In this document: positions 5,684 to 30,771 of the stretch, piece after piece
How positions within the stretch are numbered: position 1 is the stretch's first letter
Layout of the letters: every line of letters begins with the position of its first letter
Source: Bacteroidota bacterium
GTDB taxonomy: Bacteria; Bacteroidota; Bacteroidia; 2-12-FULL-35-15
Length of the DNA stretch: 64,000 nt
Direction: 5' to 3'
Assembly: GCA_025963715.1 (NCBI GenBank)
Contig: JAOQAG010000007.1
Span: 1 to 64,000 of the forward strand
Position numbers and translations under genes: made by a program
The notes under the pieces: generated by a model
What the model saw: only the letters and a program-made list of their open reading frames with translations
Database searches by the model: none
Told to the model about the DNA's origin: nothing

Positions 5684-6168
5684 TTTTTTTCTTTGTTCGC
5701 TTTTTTATAATTGACAAAAATTTTATGTGCAGGCAATCCCTCCACATTTTCATATAACAAGGCAATATTTTTATAGAATTCTTTTCGCTGATCCTTTGGA
5801 ATGCCTTTAAATGCAATTGTATTCAGACCTTCAATTTCGGAATAGATCTGCGGCATTACCTTTTTTGCTTTTGGTGTGAGCTCCACAAAATATTCCCTTC
5901 TATCATTGGGGTTCAGTACTTTTTTTACATACTTTTTTTCCATCAGGTAATCCAGGATGCGCACCATCGATACTTTATCTATCCGGAGATTATTGCAGAT
6001 GTGTTGTTGTGTACAGGTTGGTCCGGAATTTTCGATAACAATGAGGATGGAATAATACCGCTCTACTTCCAGGTGTTCCAGCCGCTTTGTGAGCGCACCA
6101 AAATACGTTTTTGCCAAAAGAGAAAGAGAGCGGCCAAGCGGAAGCTTCTCAAAAAGGTAATCACTCAT
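5680..6168 (-). CDS. MarR-family transcriptional regulator
   Basis: Winged-helix repressor-type protein of 162 residues, first gene of the efflux operon. The DNA-binding part is visible as 'TQQHICNNLRIDKVSMVRILDYLMEK' region (HTH, about residues 57-82) followed by the wing with 'PNDRREYFVELT', the DRR motif of MarR proteins. Being the promoter-proximal gene of its own operon suggests autoregulation, with release by a pump substrate; this is inference from family behaviour. The upstream region (6187-6228) holds a Bacteroidota-like -7 box and a short dyad that could be the operator. Confidence 0.9.
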   Translation of the reverse strand: MSDYLFEKLPLGRSLSLLAKTYFGALTKRLEHLEVERYYSILIVIENSGPTCTQQHICNNLRIDKVSMVRILDYLMEKKYVKKVLNPNDRREYFVELTPKAKKVMPQIYSEIEGLNTIAFKGIPKDQRKEFYKNIALLYENVEGLPAHKIFVNYKKANKEKK

Positions 6169-23512: not shown

Positions 23513-23561
23513 ATAAAAACACGCAAAAATTTATAGGGGCAGCCGCAACTACCCGCTTATT

Positions 23562-23761
23562 TTCTACCACATAAGGCACAAAGAAACACATAAGGCGAAG
23601 CGCGAAAAGGTTCACCACAAAAGGAACAAAAGAAAACAAAAGGCGGATTTAATAACCAACGTGTATTTACATACAGTTTAACAATCTGGTCTTTTGTTTT
23701 CTTTTGTGGTTCAAAAAGGGGAACACATGTCGTATCTCATACTTTGCCTTATGTGGTAGAA
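23562..23761. repeat. Long inverted repeat, 200 bp (copy B1)
   Basis: Outer arms 23562-23578 and 23745-23761 are a perfect 17-bp inverted pair (ttctaccacataaggca / complement). Inside lies a second pair, 'ccacaaaag..aaaagaaaacaaaag' (23614-23641) against 'cttttgttttcttttgtgg' (23691-23709). A related element is at 28101-28372. Nothing coding was seen. It fills the gap between tetR's promoter region and the TonB-domain gene. Confidence 0.75.
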
Positions 23762-23840: not shown

Positions 23841-25184
23841 TTATTCAATCGTAAACCGTACCGGTAAATTAAATTGAGTGCGCACCCGTTTGCCGTCTTT
23901 TTTGCCGGGTTTCCAGCGCGGCATCGATTTTACCACATTTATGGCCGCTTGTTCGCAATCGTCGCCAATACTGTCCTGCGCTCTTACATGAGATACCGTG
24001 CCGTCTTTCTCCACCACAAATGTAAGATGGACCAGTCCGCTTGTTCCATTTTCCTTTGCCTTTTCGGGATACACCAGGTTCTTTTTTATGTAATCGTCCA
24101 ATCCTAAAAATTCCGGCATTTGTTCGCCAATGTTTGCGTTCAGCGGTTCAATGCTGTCTGCCGGTATTTTAGCGTTAGTAACAACAGTATTTACACTGTC
24201 CATCATTTCACGCAAATTGTTATTCATTGTATTGTAATTATGCATCTCAAATTGTGACGTAGAATAGTCATTGCTGGAAGGCGTGTTCCAGAAACAAATT
24301 TTAACCAGTATGATCACTACAAAAATAATGACCCGTAACGAGTTTGCGCCTGTTCCTCCTGTGCTTGTGCGTGTATTCGAATACGCTTTATGGTTGCGCC
24401 TGATCAGGTCATAATGATCCCGGTCGCAAAAGCGGATCTTCATCTGCATGTGGCTCATGCGCGATACCAGCTTTTTATCGTACGTTGCCTGCTTGTGGTA
24501 ATAATACATCAGGTTGGTAACACTGCTCGAAAACTGATCGATCACATCATTAAAATCCGCAGGCAGCGCATTTAAAAAATCCGCAACTTTATGATCGCCT
24601 AAAAAACTAAAAATCTCGCCTTTTATTGATTCTGTGGCGGACCTGTCGTTGTTGTTATTTTTGATCGTGATAACGATCTCGTTGTTAAAATTAGCCAGCG
24701 CCACAATGCTTCTGTGCACTTCTTCGTAATTGATGCTTTTCCGTTCTTCCTGCAGCTGGTTGATGAAAAGCACCGATTCTTTTGCATAAATAAAATTCCG
24801 TTTGCTGATACTTTTTTTCAGCTGAAGAATAAAACGCGGTTCCATCATAAGCTGAAATTTTTCACGCAGTTCTTCCGGCGCTTTTACTTTAAGGAACCCG
24901 GCGAGCGTATAATACAGCTCATCATTTTCCAAAAAAGCCAGCAGGTTTTTATTATTAAAAATAAATTCGTGCAGGTCCAGTTCGGGATCATTCAACAATA
25001 CGTCAAATGTTTTAATGATCTCGTCCTTGGTGTATGATTTTTCTTTTACGGAAATAGTGGTACCGCCGCTCAGGTTAAGATCAGCCAGCAGCTGTTTTCT
25101 CAAACGGATCAGGTTGGTTTCATTGATCTTAAAATCCGGATCAGCAATTCCTTTTATAATGTGTAATGGCGATTGATACGACAT
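23841..25184 (-). CDS. Membrane protein with cytosolic domain and TonB C-terminal domain, partner of Hsp70
   Basis: 447 residues. Residues 1-280 are hydrophilic and helical with no domain I recognise ('KINETNLIRLRKQLLADLNL' near the start, 'IFSFLGDHKVADFLNALPAD' at 190-210). One membrane helix at 283-299 would place the N-part in the cytosol. A linker follows, then a TonB/TonB_C domain at 356-447: 'EQMPEFLGLDDYIKKNLVYP', 'GTSGLVHLTFVVEKDGTVSH', 'MPRWKPGKKDGKRVRTQFNL'. It lacks an ExbB/ExbD context, so classical energy transduction is uncertain. The start lies 1 base after the Hsp70 stop, so the two are almost certainly made together. Confidence 0.75.
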   Translation of the reverse strand: MSYQSPLHIIKGIADPDFKINETNLIRLRKQLLADLNLSGGTTISVKEKSYTKDEIIKTFDVLLNDPELDLHEFIFNNKNLLAFLENDELYYTLAGFLKVKAPEELREKFQLMMEPRFILQLKKSISKRNFIYAKESVLFINQLQEERKSINYEEVHRSIVALANFNNEIVITIKNNNNDRSATESIKGEIFSFLGDHKVADFLNALPADFNDVIDQFSSSVTNLMYYYHKQATYDKKLVSRMSHMQMKIRFCDRDHYDLIRRNHKAYSNTRTSTGGTGANSLRVIIFVVIILVKICFWNTPSSNDYSTSQFEMHNYNTMNNNLREMMDSVNTVVTNAKIPADSIEPLNANIGEQMPEFLGLDDYIKKNLVYPEKAKENGTSGLVHLTFVVEKDGTVSHVRAQDSIGDDCEQAAINVVKSMPRWKPGKKDGKRVRTQFNLPVRFTIE

Positions 25185-25185
25185 G

Positions 25186-27681
25186 CTATCCTAAACCGGT
25201 TCCGGAAATTTTATTTTGTTCGACCAGCTGATTTGCCAATCCGAATAACTGCAGCAATACTCCCTTTAATTCATCGTAATTTTGGCGGTCCAGTGCTTTT
25301 TCACCTCTTTCAATAGCTTTTTTCGCCGCCTTGTAATCTTTGTATTGTCCTTCGCCTTTGGCGGCATATACTGCAAAATAATACGTCATTAACGAAGGCG
25401 TATTGATGATGATCTTCTGGATCAGCCGGTGCTGGCTTTTTTCCAAACCATCGATCTGGTAATAACTGTTGGATGCAAACGCAGTGATCTCCCGTTCTTT
25501 CAGCGCTTCAAATTCAGCAGCATATTGTTTTGGAATATCATCATAATATTCCAGCCAGTTGATCAGCGTGTTTCTCCAGGAATAATAAATTTCCTTTATT
25601 TCCACCAGTTTGTAATTGGTGCCCGAGCTGTAAATTTCCTGCGCCAGTTTTCTTTTCTGTTCATCCACCTGGTATTTCAAATCGCTCAGATCATTATCCC
25701 GTAACGCCATTGCCTTCGAGTACAAGTCCGCCAGCCGCTCCGATTTTTCATTCAGCACCGCTGCCTGCTCATAATCCTCCGCATTTTCTGCTTTCGAAAT
25801 TTCGCGCCCGATAATATTTTTGATCTCTTTTATTTCATCGCGCAATTTGGCAAGACTTACGTGTTTTTCGGACGGGCTGAACACATCTCCGAACTGCTGA
25901 CTGTACAACAATAAATTTACGCTCACACTTACATCGCGGCTCTCGCTCATTTCAATTTTAATTTCCACATCGCTTCCTTTGATCAGGTCGCCCTGCAATT
26001 GGTATGCGGAAATATCAATCACCCCAATCGCTTTGTTGGTGTTGGGATGCGACTGGCTATTACCTTCCAGTAAATTAATGATCAAATGATCGTCTGTATT
26101 TTTTTTGATCGTTTTGCTTACCTCTTTGTAAATGGTTTTTACCAATGGTAAAATACTGTTGCGCTCAAAAACCACCTGGCATTTGGTGGTGTTATTGTCC
26201 AGGTCGTCAATTTCTATGGAAATATCTTCCGGCAACGGCTGCCCGAAAACATTGAACAATCCATGCGTTACCAGGATCTTCGGATAATTTGTCTGGATCT
26301 CGTTTTGTTGCTTGTCAACAATTTTAAACGTAAACTCATTGATCGCATTTTTCCGCAGCGTAATAAATTCGCCGAATTTTGGTATCAGCGGTTTTAATCC
26401 CGTGTCAAAACCCCCGTCATCACGCGTGATCCGGTAAAAGCAATTGGTCGGACAGTTTTTTACCTGTGCGCTTACATACTCTTCCGTATCCTTCGTTGTT
26501 TTGTTGTATGACATCTGCACTTCTATCTGTGCAGTGCTTCCGCTTGTTTTTTCTTCCGGCGTTTCCACCACTGTACACGATTTATTTCCTGCATAAAAAG
26601 CTGCGCCTACCGCCACCGCTGTGGTTGGATCAATGCTGCTGTTCACAACCAGGCCTGTACGTTGCGCTACGCTTTCGCGAACGTACGGAATGTATGTGCT
26701 GCCGCCAATCAGGATGATCTGTTTTAATTCCGAAAAGCTCAGTTGATTTCTTGATACAACCGTTTCGATCATCTCCACCGTTGCATCAATCTGTGTTTTA
26801 ACGCAGCTGTTAAATTCATCGCGGGTAAGCGGAATGTAATATTCTTTTTCCTGCCCGTTCCCTTCAAAATCATAGCTCAGCTCAATCTCCGTGGAAACGT
26901 TATTGCTCAGTTCTTTTTTTGCATCTTCCGCTTTCAGCAGCAAAATATAATACAGCTTTTCGTATTTTCCATTGTGTTTGTTTAGCTCTTCCGCCAGGTC
27001 GGTTTTTTGCGTTTCCGCGATGAGCTTCGGCAATAAAATATTCATCACAATCGAATGATCAAAATCCAAACCGCCTAAATAATTATCGCCCTGGTGATCG
27101 GTTACGCGCATTTCGCCATTGTTGATGCCAATCAGCGCCACATCAAATGTTCCGCCGCCCAGGTCATACACCAGCCATTTCCCGTCCGTTTCCGAATCAA
27201 TTTGCTTGTTAAAAAATGCAAGCGATGCCGCAATGGGTTCCTGCAACAATACCACTTCTTTAAATCCCGCTTCGTAGCCCGCTTTTTTAGTTGCATTGCT
27301 CTGCACGGTATCAAAGCTTGCCGGGATCGTGATCACCACACTTTCGGGTTTTTCCTGCGAATGAATAAAATTTTTCAGCTCCGAAAGGATCAGCGAAGAA
27401 AGCTGGATCGGTGTAAAAAAATCGTTTTTCTGCGGCGAATAATACGTTTCCGATGTTCCCATTTTCCGTTTAAAACCCGCAAACACATTCAGCGGATCTT
27501 TCAGCAGCCATTCCCTTGCTTTATCGCCGATAATGATGCGATCGTTGCGGAAAGCCACACAGCTCGGCAGTGTATCCCTGAACCCTACCGGATTTTTAAA
27601 TACTTCCACACCGGTAGAAGTATATTTTGCAATCAGGGAATTAGTAGTGCCCAGATCTATCGCAAAATTGATTGTTTTCAT
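25186..27681 (-). CDS. Hsp70-family chaperone with long C-terminal helical extension
   Basis: 831 residues, against about 640 for DnaK. The actin-like ATPase is complete: phosphate-1 'IDLGTTN' (8-14), 'VYDLGGGTFD' (171-180) and adenosine motif 'ILIGGSTYIPYVRE' near 330. Residues ~385-560 replace the usual substrate-binding domain with a divergent beta region; residues ~625-831 are coiled coil ('EIKNIIGREISKAENAEDYEQ') and an unusual helical tail ('YYDDIPKQYAAEFEALKERE'). It is the middle gene of a three-gene operon and not next to dnaJ or grpE. A specialised Hsp70, perhaps of an assembly or stress pathway tied to the membrane partner, is my inference. Confidence 0.85.
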   Translation of the reverse strand: MKTINFAIDLGTTNSLIAKYTSTGVEVFKNPVGFRDTLPSCVAFRNDRIIIGDKAREWLLKDPLNVFAGFKRKMGTSETYYSPQKNDFFTPIQLSSLILSELKNFIHSQEKPESVVITIPASFDTVQSNATKKAGYEAGFKEVVLLQEPIAASLAFFNKQIDSETDGKWLVYDLGGGTFDVALIGINNGEMRVTDHQGDNYLGGLDFDHSIVMNILLPKLIAETQKTDLAEELNKHNGKYEKLYYILLLKAEDAKKELSNNVSTEIELSYDFEGNGQEKEYYIPLTRDEFNSCVKTQIDATVEMIETVVSRNQLSFSELKQIILIGGSTYIPYVRESVAQRTGLVVNSSIDPTTAVAVGAAFYAGNKSCTVVETPEEKTSGSTAQIEVQMSYNKTTKDTEEYVSAQVKNCPTNCFYRITRDDGGFDTGLKPLIPKFGEFITLRKNAINEFTFKIVDKQQNEIQTNYPKILVTHGLFNVFGQPLPEDISIEIDDLDNNTTKCQVVFERNSILPLVKTIYKEVSKTIKKNTDDHLIINLLEGNSQSHPNTNKAIGVIDISAYQLQGDLIKGSDVEIKIEMSESRDVSVSVNLLLYSQQFGDVFSPSEKHVSLAKLRDEIKEIKNIIGREISKAENAEDYEQAAVLNEKSERLADLYSKAMALRDNDLSDLKYQVDEQKRKLAQEIYSSGTNYKLVEIKEIYYSWRNTLINWLEYYDDIPKQYAAEFEALKEREITAFASNSYYQIDGLEKSQHRLIQKIIINTPSLMTYYFAVYAAKGEGQYKDYKAAKKAIERGEKALDRQNYDELKGVLLQLFGLANQLVEQNKISGTGLG

Positions 27682-27691
27682 TTGTAAAAAA

Positions 27692-27982
27692 TTATTTTGA
27701 TTCTACGATAACGATTGCACGCTGTACGATTTTCGAATCCTGGATAATGATTGGTTTGATCACTTTGGTGATCACTAAATTTTTTGTGCTTTCGCCGATG
27801 ATCGTAGCGTCTACATCCGTACGCGTATCCTTGTAATCCTCATTCACCGGTGAAGAATAGCTGTAGCCCATTTCCGAAAGCGCTTGTTTGATACGGTTAA
27901 AGCTGCGTGCATTCTCGTCGGAAGCACTTAGTTTGCTTTCCAGCGTATTCAACTGGTTAATGATCTCAATAATGGGTTGCAT
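27692..27982 (-). CDS. Small protein heading the Hsp70 operon
   Basis: 96 residues, soluble. The N-terminal half is a likely coiled coil ('IIEIINQLNTLESKLSASDE'), the C-terminal half beta-rich ('DATIIGESTKNLVITKVIKP', 'QRAIVIVESK'). Its size and helix-then-strand layout faintly resemble a minimal GrpE, the Hsp70 nucleotide exchange factor, but no GrpE motif is visible. It ends 10 bases before the Hsp70 gene. Unrecognised; a co-chaperone or adaptor role is inferred only from position. Confidence 0.6.
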   Translation of the reverse strand: MQPIIEIINQLNTLESKLSASDENARSFNRIKQALSEMGYSYSSPVNEDYKDTRTDVDATIIGESTKNLVITKVIKPIIIQDSKIVQRAIVIVESK

Positions 27983-28100
27983 GCGGAGGAGTGGTTACGT
28001 TTTTTAATGCTTCGGTTTTATCGATCGTAAATTTACTGATTCAGCAGCAATAAAACAACGGAAGAAATTCGCAGGACGTCACAATTTTTTCCACCGCATT

Positions 28101-28372
28101 TTCTACCACATAAGGCACAAAGAAGCACATAAGGCTAAGCCCGAAAAAGGTTTACCACAAAAGAAAACAAAAGAAAGCAAAAGACGGGGTTGTTAAGCTG
28201 TATGCAAAACACCTGCTGAAATGAGATTGCTTCATTCTCCGCAATGACGCATTGCACATTGGCATGTTACACCTGCTTCTTTTGATTCTTTTGTTTTCTT
28301 TTGTGGTTCAAAAGCACACGTTGGCATGTCACAGCTTGCCTTATGTGTTTCTTTGTGCCTTATGTAGTTTAA
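28101..28372. repeat. Long inverted repeat, ~270 bp (copy B2)
   Basis: Arms 28101-28140 and 28334-28372 pair over about 38 bp with a few mismatches (ttctaccacataaggcacaa / complement), as in copy B1. An inner 'accacaaaagaaaacaaaag' pairs with 'cttttgttttcttttgtggt'. In the loop is a 'gagattgcttcattctccgcaatgacg' fragment of the GTCATTGCGAG family. Non-coding, located between the TPR phosphatase stop and the Hsp70 operon promoter. Confidence 0.75.
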
Positions 28373-28479: not shown

Positions 28480-30771
28480 CTACACCCGCACACCCATAAT
28501 GGTAATATCGTCCGTTTGTTCCAGCCCGCCTTTCCAGCCGTTCAGTACTTCCGATAATTTTTCTTTTTGTTCCTCCATGGGTAAATGAGAAATAGAAATC
28601 AGCAATTCTTTTAACTGTTTGTACAGGAATTTTTTCCCTTTGCTTCCTCCAAACTGGTCGGGCATTCCGTCGGTGAACGTGTACACCACATCGCCTTTTT
28701 GCAGCTTCACCGTATGTTGTGTAAACGGCGTATTGTCTTTATCGTGCTTGCCTACCGGCATTTTATCGGAAACAAATTCAAGGATCTTATTTTCCCGCGC
28801 GATCCAGATCGGGTTATTGGCAGCGGCATACGTAAAGCGGTTATTTTTCAGATCAAAACTGATCAGGCTGCAATCCATGCCGTCTTTTCCGCCATCATTG
28901 CTGCCGTCTTTTTTTAAGCGCTCAATAATGGTGTTCCTCGTTTCATTTAAAATAGCGGAAGGTTCCGTTTGTTTTTCAACCGCTTTTTCCAGCGATGAAA
29001 TATTCAGGATGCTCATAATGGCACCCGGAACGCCATGCCCGGTTGAATCTGCAGTGATGCAGGCAAAATTCCCGTTTGCTAATTTAGCCGCCCAGTAAAA
29101 ATCGCCGCTCACCACATCTTTCGGCTGGAAAAAAACAAAATACGAAGGAAGATGTTCATCCAGCAATGTTTTGCTTGCCAGGAAACTCCGCTGGATCCGT
29201 TCCGCATAATTAATACTATCCGTGATCTCTTTGTGTTTTTCTTCGATCAATTGTTTTTGTTCTTCCACAACCGATTTTTGTTTCCGCGTTTCTTTTTCCT
29301 GTTGCTCGATGATTATTTTTTGCCGTTGCGTTATTTTAAAACGGTTGTACATAAATCCGGCAAAAACCAATACCAGTGCTAATCCGCCAAACAAAGCATA
29401 TTGCTGGTTCCGCTTCGCTTTAATTTCGGCTTGCTGCTGACTGATCTGCGCCTGACGCACTTCTTTTTCTTTTGCATTCACCACACTATCGGCAGCAGCT
29501 TTTTTCTCATAATTGTATTGCAATTCCCTTTTAATGCTGGCTTTTTGCACCTGCGTGTTGTTAATGCTATCGCGCATGGTAATGGAAAGCTTGTATACCT
29601 GCAAGGCAAGCGCAGGTTTGTTTTGCATTTCGTAGATCTGATCCAGGATGGTGGCCGCATTTAATATATTTTGTGGAAATCCAATCTCTTTACCGATCGT
29701 GAGGGAACGCTGCGCGAAACTTTCTGCAGTTGCATAATTTTTTTTATTCAAATATACTTTACCGATGTTGCAAAGCGAGTTGGCAATCCCTTTTTTGTAA
29801 CCGATCTCCTCCTGCAGTTTCAGGCTTTTTGTAAAACAATCGAGTGCCTCATCCGGTTTATTTTGATAATCGTTGTAAATGGTTCCTGTGTTAAAAAGCG
29901 AATTTGCCCTTTCTTTTTTATCGTTGTTATCTTCCGCAACTTTTAAACCCCGGCTAAAATAATCCAGCGCTTTTGAAATGTTTCCCTGCTTTTTATAAAT
30001 GCCGCCAATGTTGTTAAGCGCAATAGCAATCCCGGTTTTGTCTTTGTTATTTTCATAGATCTTCAGGCTTTTGCTGTAAAACGTAAGCGCCTGTGCGTAA
30101 TCATCCAAACTGCTGTAGATCGATCCGATGTTGTTAAGCGAATAAGCGATCACTTTGGTGTGATTGCATGCTTCCGCGATTTTCAAACTATTGCTGTAAT
30201 AATCCAACGCTTTCGGAATATTTCCCTGGAAATTATACAGCGAACCGATGCTGAAATACGTTTCGGAAAGCCCTTGTTTGTTATTGATTTCTTCCTGTAC
30301 TTTTTTACATTGCAAAAAATAATCCAGTGCTTTTGCAGTATTATTCTGCGCCTGGTATACCACGCCAGTATTAAAAATGGTGCTCGACAATCCTTTTTTA
30401 TCACCGATCTCTTCCTGGATCTTCCTGCTTTTGCCGTAGTATTCCACGGCTTTGTCATATTCGCCTTTTCGCCGGTACAGGTAACCTTGCTGGCAAATAG
30501 CAGCAGCTAAATTTTTTAAATAAAATGATTTTAATTTTCTCGGATCGCTTTGTAATTTTTGCTCGCACAATTTTTGCAATTGATCGCTGTATTGCGCGAT
30601 CTCACCCTCTTCCGTGGCGTCATCCGCAATAATGTCACTTAAAATACTGCAGCGGCTGGTGTCATTCCCTGCTTTTTTTAATGCAATTTTTAGTGAATCA
30701 AGATGCTGGCCGATTGTAACAGTATGCAGCAAAAAAAATGTGAAGAGGAGAGAGAAGTGTTTTTTAATCAT
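28480..30771 (-). CDS. TPR-SpoIIE sensor phosphatase
   Basis: 763 residues. Signal peptide (1-21), seven or so consecutive TPRs at about 90-365 with 40-residue spacing ('SIGSLYNFQGNIPKALDYYS', 'NNIGGIYKKQGNISKALDYF'), a membrane helix at 458-476, a cytosolic coiled coil (478-520) and a SpoIIE/PP2C phosphatase domain (520-763) with 'GDFYWAAKLANGNFACITAD' and 'DSTGHGVPGA'. This periplasmic-TPR plus cytosolic-phosphatase design is widespread in Bacteroidota and probably acts on an anti-sigma-factor antagonist or similar Ser/Thr phosphoprotein. No partner gene is adjacent. Divergent from the TonB receptor locus. Confidence 0.88.
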   Translation of the reverse strand: MIKKHFSLLFTFFLLHTVTIGQHLDSLKIALKKAGNDTSRCSILSDIIADDATEEGEIAQYSDQLQKLCEQKLQSDPRKLKSFYLKNLAAAICQQGYLYRRKGEYDKAVEYYGKSRKIQEEIGDKKGLSSTIFNTGVVYQAQNNTAKALDYFLQCKKVQEEINNKQGLSETYFSIGSLYNFQGNIPKALDYYSNSLKIAEACNHTKVIAYSLNNIGSIYSSLDDYAQALTFYSKSLKIYENNKDKTGIAIALNNIGGIYKKQGNISKALDYFSRGLKVAEDNNDKKERANSLFNTGTIYNDYQNKPDEALDCFTKSLKLQEEIGYKKGIANSLCNIGKVYLNKKNYATAESFAQRSLTIGKEIGFPQNILNAATILDQIYEMQNKPALALQVYKLSITMRDSINNTQVQKASIKRELQYNYEKKAAADSVVNAKEKEVRQAQISQQQAEIKAKRNQQYALFGGLALVLVFAGFMYNRFKITQRQKIIIEQQEKETRKQKSVVEEQKQLIEEKHKEITDSINYAERIQRSFLASKTLLDEHLPSYFVFFQPKDVVSGDFYWAAKLANGNFACITADSTGHGVPGAIMSILNISSLEKAVEKQTEPSAILNETRNTIIERLKKDGSNDGGKDGMDCSLISFDLKNNRFTYAAANNPIWIARENKILEFVSDKMPVGKHDKDNTPFTQHTVKLQKGDVVYTFTDGMPDQFGGSKGKKFLYKQLKELLISISHLPMEEQKEKLSEVLNGWKGGLEQTDDITIMGVRV

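Follow-up and report, generated by a model that had tools for sequence, protein, structure and literature searches.

A three-gene operon in a 64,000-nucleotide stretch of Bacteroidota DNA (here called the window) probably encodes a membrane-tethered chaperone machine, in which an Hsp70 and its own nucleotide exchange factor would work at the inner membrane and a membrane protein without an HPD motif would stand in for the J-protein. Judged from its sequence, the Hsp70 (gene 2) represents a further bacterial class beyond DnaK, HscA, and HscC, and we found no account of such a class in the open-license literature searched. The features of the operon are as follows.

27692-27982, minus strand: gene 1, 96 aa; stalkless GrpE-head protein, predicted nucleotide exchange factor
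25186-27681, minus strand: gene 2, 831 aa; Hsp70 outside the DnaK, HscA, and HscC classes
26581-27681, minus strand: nucleotide-binding domain (NBD) of gene 2, approximately residues 1 to 367; ATPase residues kept, J-docking residues replaced
25189-26586, minus strand: C-terminal half of gene 2, from about residue 366; an extra region at the place of the linker, then a weakly SBD-beta-like part, followed by a stretch that is probably helical and by a GTGLG tail
23841-25184, minus strand: gene 3, whole ORF, 447 aa
24327-25184, minus strand: conserved cytosolic domain of gene 3, residues 1 to 286; helical with one beta-hairpin (AlphaFold2)
24288-24341, minus strand: single transmembrane helix of gene 3, residues 282 to 299 (hydropathy)
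23847-24080, minus strand: periplasmic TonB_C domain of gene 3, residues 369 to 446 (Pfam); found in 1 of 62 members, the window's own

The locus and its genome

The ORF coordinates bear out the three genes as they were originally read, with gaps of 10 bases and 1 base between them. The operon is flanked by related copies of a hairpin-forming repeat (window positions 23559-23755 and 28098-28368); the 271-nt copy folds with a z-score of -9.6. Since the repeat has 133 matches in the same genome (both strands counted, some overlapping), it belongs to a dispersed family. Upstream in the window lies a gene for a TPR-SpoIIE phosphatase (28480-30771); it belongs to a large paralogous family, and the genome has 14 such matches in all, this one included. 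Besides gene 2, the genome carries one DnaK-like gene (on contig C18 of this genome, G000), which groups with E. coli DnaK in the NBD tree described below, as well as one GrpE gene and five J-domain genes.

Gene 2 represents a separate class of Hsp70

Gene 2 has an actin-fold NBD with the ATPase residues, which qualifies it as a member of the Hsp70 superfamily (Pfam PF00012, E = 2.1e-67, best stretch residues 7 to 368). A first scan of contigs with gene 2 as the sole query returned no relative. The census of the class has 71 members and leaves out Hsp70 ORFs scoring 500 bits or less or of 700 aa or shorter. The ATPase residues D8, T11, K70, E171, T199, and D201 are present in all 71. Five further residues, R167, N170, T173, E217, and Q378, are shared by all 28 Bacteroidota DnaKs compared and also by the HscA and HscC of E. 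coli; the corresponding counts in the gene 2 class are 0, 1, 0, 0, and 0 of 71, and the position of Q378 is occupied by Y or F in 70 members, with one gap. We take N170, T173, and E217 to be J-docking positions. The four residues R167, N170, T173, and Q378 are thus all retained in DnaK, HscA, and HscC but not in the gene 2 class. A passage in a 2021 review describes D35 of the HPD motif as contacting R167 and Q378 (PMC8215388).

The linker differs as well. A VLLLD linker directly follows the NBD in 28 of 28 DnaKs, the reference set for this comparison, whereas within residues 351 to 440 of the gene 2 class the motif occurs exactly in 2 of 71 members and loosely in 3 of 71; all of these matches fall at residues 401 to 403, inside the extra region and away from the place of the linker, so that the class has no VLLLD-type linker directly after the NBD. 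By contrast, the loop that carries the GrpE signature, counted as alignment columns 285 to 298, is mostly kept: DnaK has 14 residues there, HscA 4, and HscC 8, and in the gene 2 class the loop has at least 12 residues in 60 of 71 members and 8 or 10 in the other 11. Going by these alignments, the class has lost the J-docking residues and the linker and has kept the ATPase residues, and gene 2 appears to be without the surface through which an ordinary Hsp70 is activated. A J contact could still be compensated, as the loss of the canonical residues leaves room for this.

A tree of NBDs was built from 53 rows, including 30 of the 71 class members (the window's own and 29 chosen at random) and 14 of the 28 Bacteroidota DnaKs. 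The gene 2 class (30 rows) was recovered with support of 97/95, and gene 2 was placed outside the clade of DnaK, HscA, and HscC. The class together with a more distant type (6 rows, see below) was split from DnaK, HscA, and HscC with support of 100/100, a placement to be read with the caveat that HscA and HscC are each represented by one long-branched row and that the program warned of long branches meeting.

The C-terminal half of gene 2 matched no Pfam family at E values up to 0.1. When 20 C-terminal halves of the class were compared, no Pfam family matched more than one of the 20, and a PDB search gave no convincing match. Part of this half is weakly similar to the DnaK SBD-beta (hhalign P = 0.0028, probability 11%; reversed control, 0.22). 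The tail GTGIG ends 26 of 77 Hsp70s of the two types, and others have similar tails.

Gene 1 is predicted to adopt the fold of the GrpE head

The AlphaFold2 model of gene 1, based on a 72-row alignment, has a pLDDT of 92.3 and consists of two helices followed by six strands. A Foldseek search of the PDB with this model placed GrpE or GrpEL1 at ranks 1 to 13 (best E = 3.3e-3, probability 1.00), with no row reaching an E value of 0.001. VIA-align 2 superimposed the model on six GrpE entries with Z scores of 8.3 to 9.3 over 90 to 94 of the 96 residues, and on a seventh with a Z score of 5.7 over 73 residues; the best non-GrpE entry, an unrelated protein, had a Z score of 2.8. A profile of gene 1 aligned with 21 GrpE sequences in the expected register, that of the fold alignment, with a pairwise P of 0.0016 and a probability of 16% (reversed profile, 0.22). 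By its model, then, gene 1 is a GrpE head, with the two helices and the beta-wing, in agreement with the original prediction, which had guessed that the small protein is an exchange factor.

Gene 1 aligns with E. coli GrpE from residue 89 of the latter onward and therefore lacks the long N-terminal coiled-coil stalk. Members of the family are 95 to 148 aa long, with a median of 107 (72 members). Pfam does not see the relationship: PF01025 gave no match to the window's gene 1 at E values up to 1 and is not among the 25 families shown, out of 28, for the 72 gene 1 members (E up to 0.1), and no Pfam family reached its own cutoff with the window's gene 1. For gene 1 and the window's gene 3 domain, searches of Pfam, NCBIfam, PHROGs, and PADLOC stayed at chance level. 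Across the two families, any one Pfam or NCBIfam model matched a few members at most, and a PDB sequence search with the two profiles gave nothing convincing. The GrpE fold alone is not proof of exchange activity; we infer from the model that gene 1 exchanges nucleotide on gene 2. The gene 1 alignment (A8) keeps 71 of 76 rows, plus P0001; L119, L120, L142, L161, and L166 were dropped. At one locus (L075:4433-6049), gene 1 looks split, with its C-terminal piece at 5840-6049 and a 257-aa ORF on the other strand between the pieces, as if by insertion.

The three genes are linked and co-occur

A search of the genome collection with the gene 1 profile gave 137 relatives, and the best 80 of the 137 were kept as loci. 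Most (75/80) are labeled Bacteroidota, including Saprospiraceae, Chitinophagaceae, Cytophagales, and Flavobacteriaceae; the other five come from bins labeled Planctomycetota (L116, L123, and L126), Chitinispirillum (L115), and Clostridium (L106), for which a binning error is possible. The cultured environmental isolates that have the operon include Taibaiella lutea and Niastella vici. This set overlaps an earlier set of relatives (L147 is L063, and L087 is L081), so the two are not independent. An Hsp70 ORF of the gene 2 class is present in 76 of the 80 loci fetched by the gene 1 profile, and the module is therefore a unit beyond chance. Gene 1 immediately precedes the Hsp70: over 72 measured pairs the median gap is 9 nt, and in 65 of the 72 it is within 60 nt. 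Two loci (L110:5965-6351 and L156:5956-6330) have gene 1 but lack an Hsp70 in the stretch, and in a third (L102:5995-8324) genes 1 and 3 are adjacent and the Hsp70 is absent from the stretch.

The gene 3 cytosolic domain was found in 58 of the 80 loci, each of up to about 12 kb, with a broader profile, and in 57 with the first profile. Its side and strand relative to the Hsp70 vary: it may lie downstream on the same strand (18 genes are adjacent), downstream on the other strand (18 adjacent), or upstream. The order on which the original prediction was built recurs, on the same strand, in at least 16 of the 80 loci. A changed order within a kept neighborhood argues for a functional tie rather than for one inherited operon. 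Gene 3 went undetected in 22 of 80 loci; among 20 listed loci that have the Hsp70 and no gene 3, some end a few hundred bases from the Hsp70 and others extend 2 to 3.5 kb beyond it. At L160:8872-11253 (Chryseobacterium) and L162:5145-5987 (Flavobacterium), genes on the opposite strand, next to the Hsp70 or gene 1, were judged by eye to resemble highly diverged gene 3 proteins missed by the profile. Five loci (L127, L146, L150, L121, and L154) have two gene 3 paralogs side by side, adjoining one Hsp70.

The Hsp70 class is sporadically distributed, since its holders are few among genomes of the same class and the same genus. Twenty-five of 395 same-class genomes (own included) match the Hsp70 at an E value of 1e-50 or better; classed by score, 21 of these have the window's type, and four (G107, G119, G140, and G371) have the distant type only. 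Within 36 genomes of the same genus, own included, the window's genome has this type and one (G006) the distant type; in the other 34, matches went no further than DnaK- or MreB-like sequences or short fragments. For co-occurrence, 40 genomes were chosen: 19 of the 21 holders, 20 without a match, and G107, which has the distant type and no gene 3 and was left out of the comparison; the 40 leave out two genomes of this type (G389 and G405) and three of the distant type (G119, G140, and G371). Gene 3 was found in 15 of the 19 genomes with the Hsp70 class and in none of the 20 without it (Fisher P = 1.5e-7, a guide only, as the genomes were picked as holders or nonholders, are related, and partly supplied the profiles). 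Gene 1 was found in 16 of the 19 and none of the 20, leaving three holders without a detectable gene 1. In five genomes (G036, G118, G236, G332, and G352), gene 3 lies on another contig or more than 1 Mb from the Hsp70, so that its co-occurrence with the Hsp70 is not mere linkage.

Gene 3 is a probable membrane-tethered partner without an HPD motif

Hydropathy agrees with the long cytosolic part and membrane helix originally read in gene 3: there is one hydrophobic segment, at residues 282 to 299, and none near the N-terminus. In the family, 60 of 62 proteins have a predicted membrane helix on the C-terminal side of residue 180; in 41 of 62 there is a single one, with more than 80 residues after it. 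Residues 1 to 286 were modeled by AlphaFold2 with a pLDDT of 91.1. The model begins with helices at residues 8 to 13 and 22 to 39, a beta-hairpin at 43 to 52, and helices at 53 to 65 and 69 to 77, followed by further helices. Two family alignments were used: A7 keeps 59 of 61 rows, plus P0003, L069, and L075, with the near-copies L119 and L142 dropped; A9 keeps 53 of 62, plus the window's own, with nine long, partial, or near-copy rows dropped.

The helix order in the first 77 residues resembles that of a J-domain, and gene 3 might on this account be a degenerate J-domain protein still using the J-site, with helices I to IV, the beta-hairpin in place of the HPD loop, and Hsp70 residues that have covaried. 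E. coli offers an analog, in that a part of the 2021 review reports the tail-anchored J-proteins DjlB and DjlC to be encoded close to HscC (PMC8215388). Against this, hhalign comparison of gene 3 with 26 J-domains gave a P of 0.27, inside the range of the controls (0.18 to 0.64), and comparisons with segments of DnaJ, HscB, DjlB, and DjlC gave P values of 0.15 to 0.5, the DjlC segment being other than its J-domain. The window's gene 3 has no HPD motif; the tripeptide occurs within the first 90 residues of 3 of 54 rows, at positions 62, 62, and 70, and not between helices 2 and 3, where a J-domain has it. A fold search with the whole domain found common helical arrangements only (best Z score, 9.8), with no family standing out and no J-domain among the matches listed, residues 1 to 118 being barely covered. 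A plain J-protein is not supported by the profile comparisons, and we consider a degenerate one unlikely, though the best placed of the alternatives.

A distant type has a different set of neighboring genes

Three loci with the distant type of Hsp70 (L033:6926-14664, L083:1110-8855, and L086) share one gene order: an "NPYR" protein comes first, next a protein bearing a membrane segment, and then the Hsp70, which is followed by a kinase-AAA+ protein, a TerB-like protein, and finally a small membrane protein. L085 adds a second Hsp70-like gene to this order. Pfam, run for this type on L083, gave strong matches to the kinase and AAA families, DUF6804 at 1.3e-36, and TerB at 0.09, below the cutoff. 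In the Hsp70s of this type, R167 is replaced by E and N170 by Q in 6 of 6. The C-terminal part of the membrane-segment protein, the segment being assigned by eye, may correspond to gene 1; the likeness is weak, with E values of 4e-4 for the window's protein (L084 and L085) and of 1e-5 to 2e-4 for the gene 1 family profile (L084, L085, and L086). These loci suggest that a layout of an Hsp70, an exchange factor-like protein, and a third protein is older than the window's type, and that the anchor is on the exchange factor-like protein in the distant type and on gene 3 in the window's type.

The genes encoded with the distant type raise the question of whether gene 2 is instead a regulatory or signaling ATPase, a conformational switch in a stress or conflict pathway and not a chaperone. 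In addition to the kinase-AAA+, TerB-like, and DUF6804 proteins of this sister type, a TerB gene lies downstream in L072, and a passage on conflict systems describes HSP70 and GrpE together with DnaJ fusions in some of them (PMC7159879). In L034 (5805-8342), gene 1 has a divergently oriented neighbor that encodes a PP2C phosphatase weakly matching Sel1; this could be taken in the same sense. Beside the window's type, however, no enzyme family recurs in the 27 stretches whose neighbors were clustered. PADLOC found no model of a known anti-phage defense system, its one match, to LeoA, being weak (E = 6.9e-5) and spanning 87 residues (606 to 692) of gene 2, and SBD-like sequence is weakly recognizable in gene 2. 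We regard a signaling role as distinctly improbable.

The periplasmic part of gene 3 is variable

The window's gene 3 ends in a TonB_C domain (PF03544, E = 2.6e-18), and the original prediction had inferred from it a coupling of the chaperone across the inner membrane to an outer membrane or periplasmic partner. The domain is present in 1 of 62 gene 3 proteins, the window's only, and must therefore be seen as a local domain swap and not as the principle of the system; as its core it was rejected. In other members the C-terminal part is a different one, or the protein stops just past the helix, so coupling to outer membrane receptors is not common to the family. A motif resembling N-x-S-x-Y-D-x-V-L-F recurs in some of the tails, with an exact match in 4 of 62 proteins and a loose one in 10 of 62. 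The conserved unit is not the one stressed earlier; of the original prediction, the exchange factor guess was upheld by the model, and TonB coupling did not prove general.

The membrane helix of TonB carries an S..H motif. A chaperone coupled through a TonB domain to outer membrane receptors or a periplasmic partner, with force or signals crossing the membrane, is very unlikely: TonB_C does follow a single membrane helix in the window's protein, but that helix has no His, the operon has no ExbD genes, and the domain is missing from L127 and L147, which have the same gene order. Nor is this an ordinary ExbBD locus, as the genome's ExbD matches (ExbD being the component searched) are on contig C19 and at C25:75275-76606, the nearest about 47 kb away. 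ExbD and TonB_C matches occur together at G000:C25:75275-77474, on the same contig as the operon, in what resembles an ordinary TonB locus. In this one organism, TonB_C might link the machine to an outer membrane process; this would not be the function of the family.

Discussion

We propose that gene 2 is an ATP-hydrolyzing Hsp70 of a new class and that gene 1 serves as its dedicated exchange factor and resets it. The cytosolic domain of gene 3 would bind and recruit gene 2, holding it at the inner membrane, where its work would be done, and would probably replace a J-domain protein in triggering or positioning it, so that gene 2 would be activated without an HPD motif. The periplasmic C-terminal part of gene 3, here TonB_C, would be the variable part, and membrane or envelope proteins near gene 3 would be the likeliest clients. 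J-domain proteins are called obligate Hsp70 partners in one passage of the literature (PMC3486835), and the GrpE stalk is described in another as contacting the interdomain linker (PMC12987570). In the window's module, two interfaces have changed together, that of HPD with the J-groove and that of the GrpE stalk with the interdomain linker, and this is the strongest reason to accept a real mechanistic departure. A further-reaching reading, which we put forward tentatively and hold to be somewhat less probable than the machine itself, is that this Hsp70 class abandoned J-domain control and kept GrpE-type exchange, with a membrane-anchored helical domain of new fold triggering hydrolysis and with swappable periplasmic domains, TonB_C included.

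The 2021 review, in the part concerned, lists three types of prokaryotic Hsp70, DnaK, HscA, and HscC (PMC8215388), and in the open-license literature searched we found no description of the window's module. It shares with DnaK-DnaJ-GrpE an Hsp70 with a GrpE-fold factor, identical ATPase residues, and a mostly kept GrpE-signature loop; it differs in that the operon has no HPD-bearing J-protein, gene 2 has neither the J-docking residues nor the linker, the GrpE head is stalkless, and the C-terminal half of gene 2 is longer. The HscC system of E. coli is similar in having, as the review passage describes it, a divergent Hsp70 beside membrane-anchored partners (DjlB and DjlC), but HscC retains R167, N170, T173, and Q378, and its partners are J-proteins, the reverse of gene 2; the same passage describes HscC as without the GrpE signature (PMC8215388), whereas the gene 2 class mostly keeps that loop.

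Two other systems pair an Hsp70 with an exchange factor. GAP1-N2 GTPase conflict systems are described, in the section on them, as linking an HSP70 gene to its own GrpE and a third, modular protein, but with DnaJ or TPR fusions, GTPases, and FNIII proteins, and predominantly in actinobacteria and firmicutes (PMC7159879); Pfam named none of their parts among the neighbors scanned here. In Myxococcus, the GrpE-DnaK2 operon MXAN_6672-MXAN_6671 likewise encodes a second Hsp70 and, immediately before it, a dedicated exchange factor, but by the account in part of that paper the Hsp70 is of DnaK type and the GrpE has 34% similarity to E. coli GrpE (PMC11019930), whereas Pfam does not see the GrpE head of the window.

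With both sides of two known interfaces altered together, the module is a natural test case for asking what the Hsp70 cycle can and cannot do without. If the further-reaching reading is true, swappable periplasmic domains would let each lineage link the chaperone cycle to a different envelope process.
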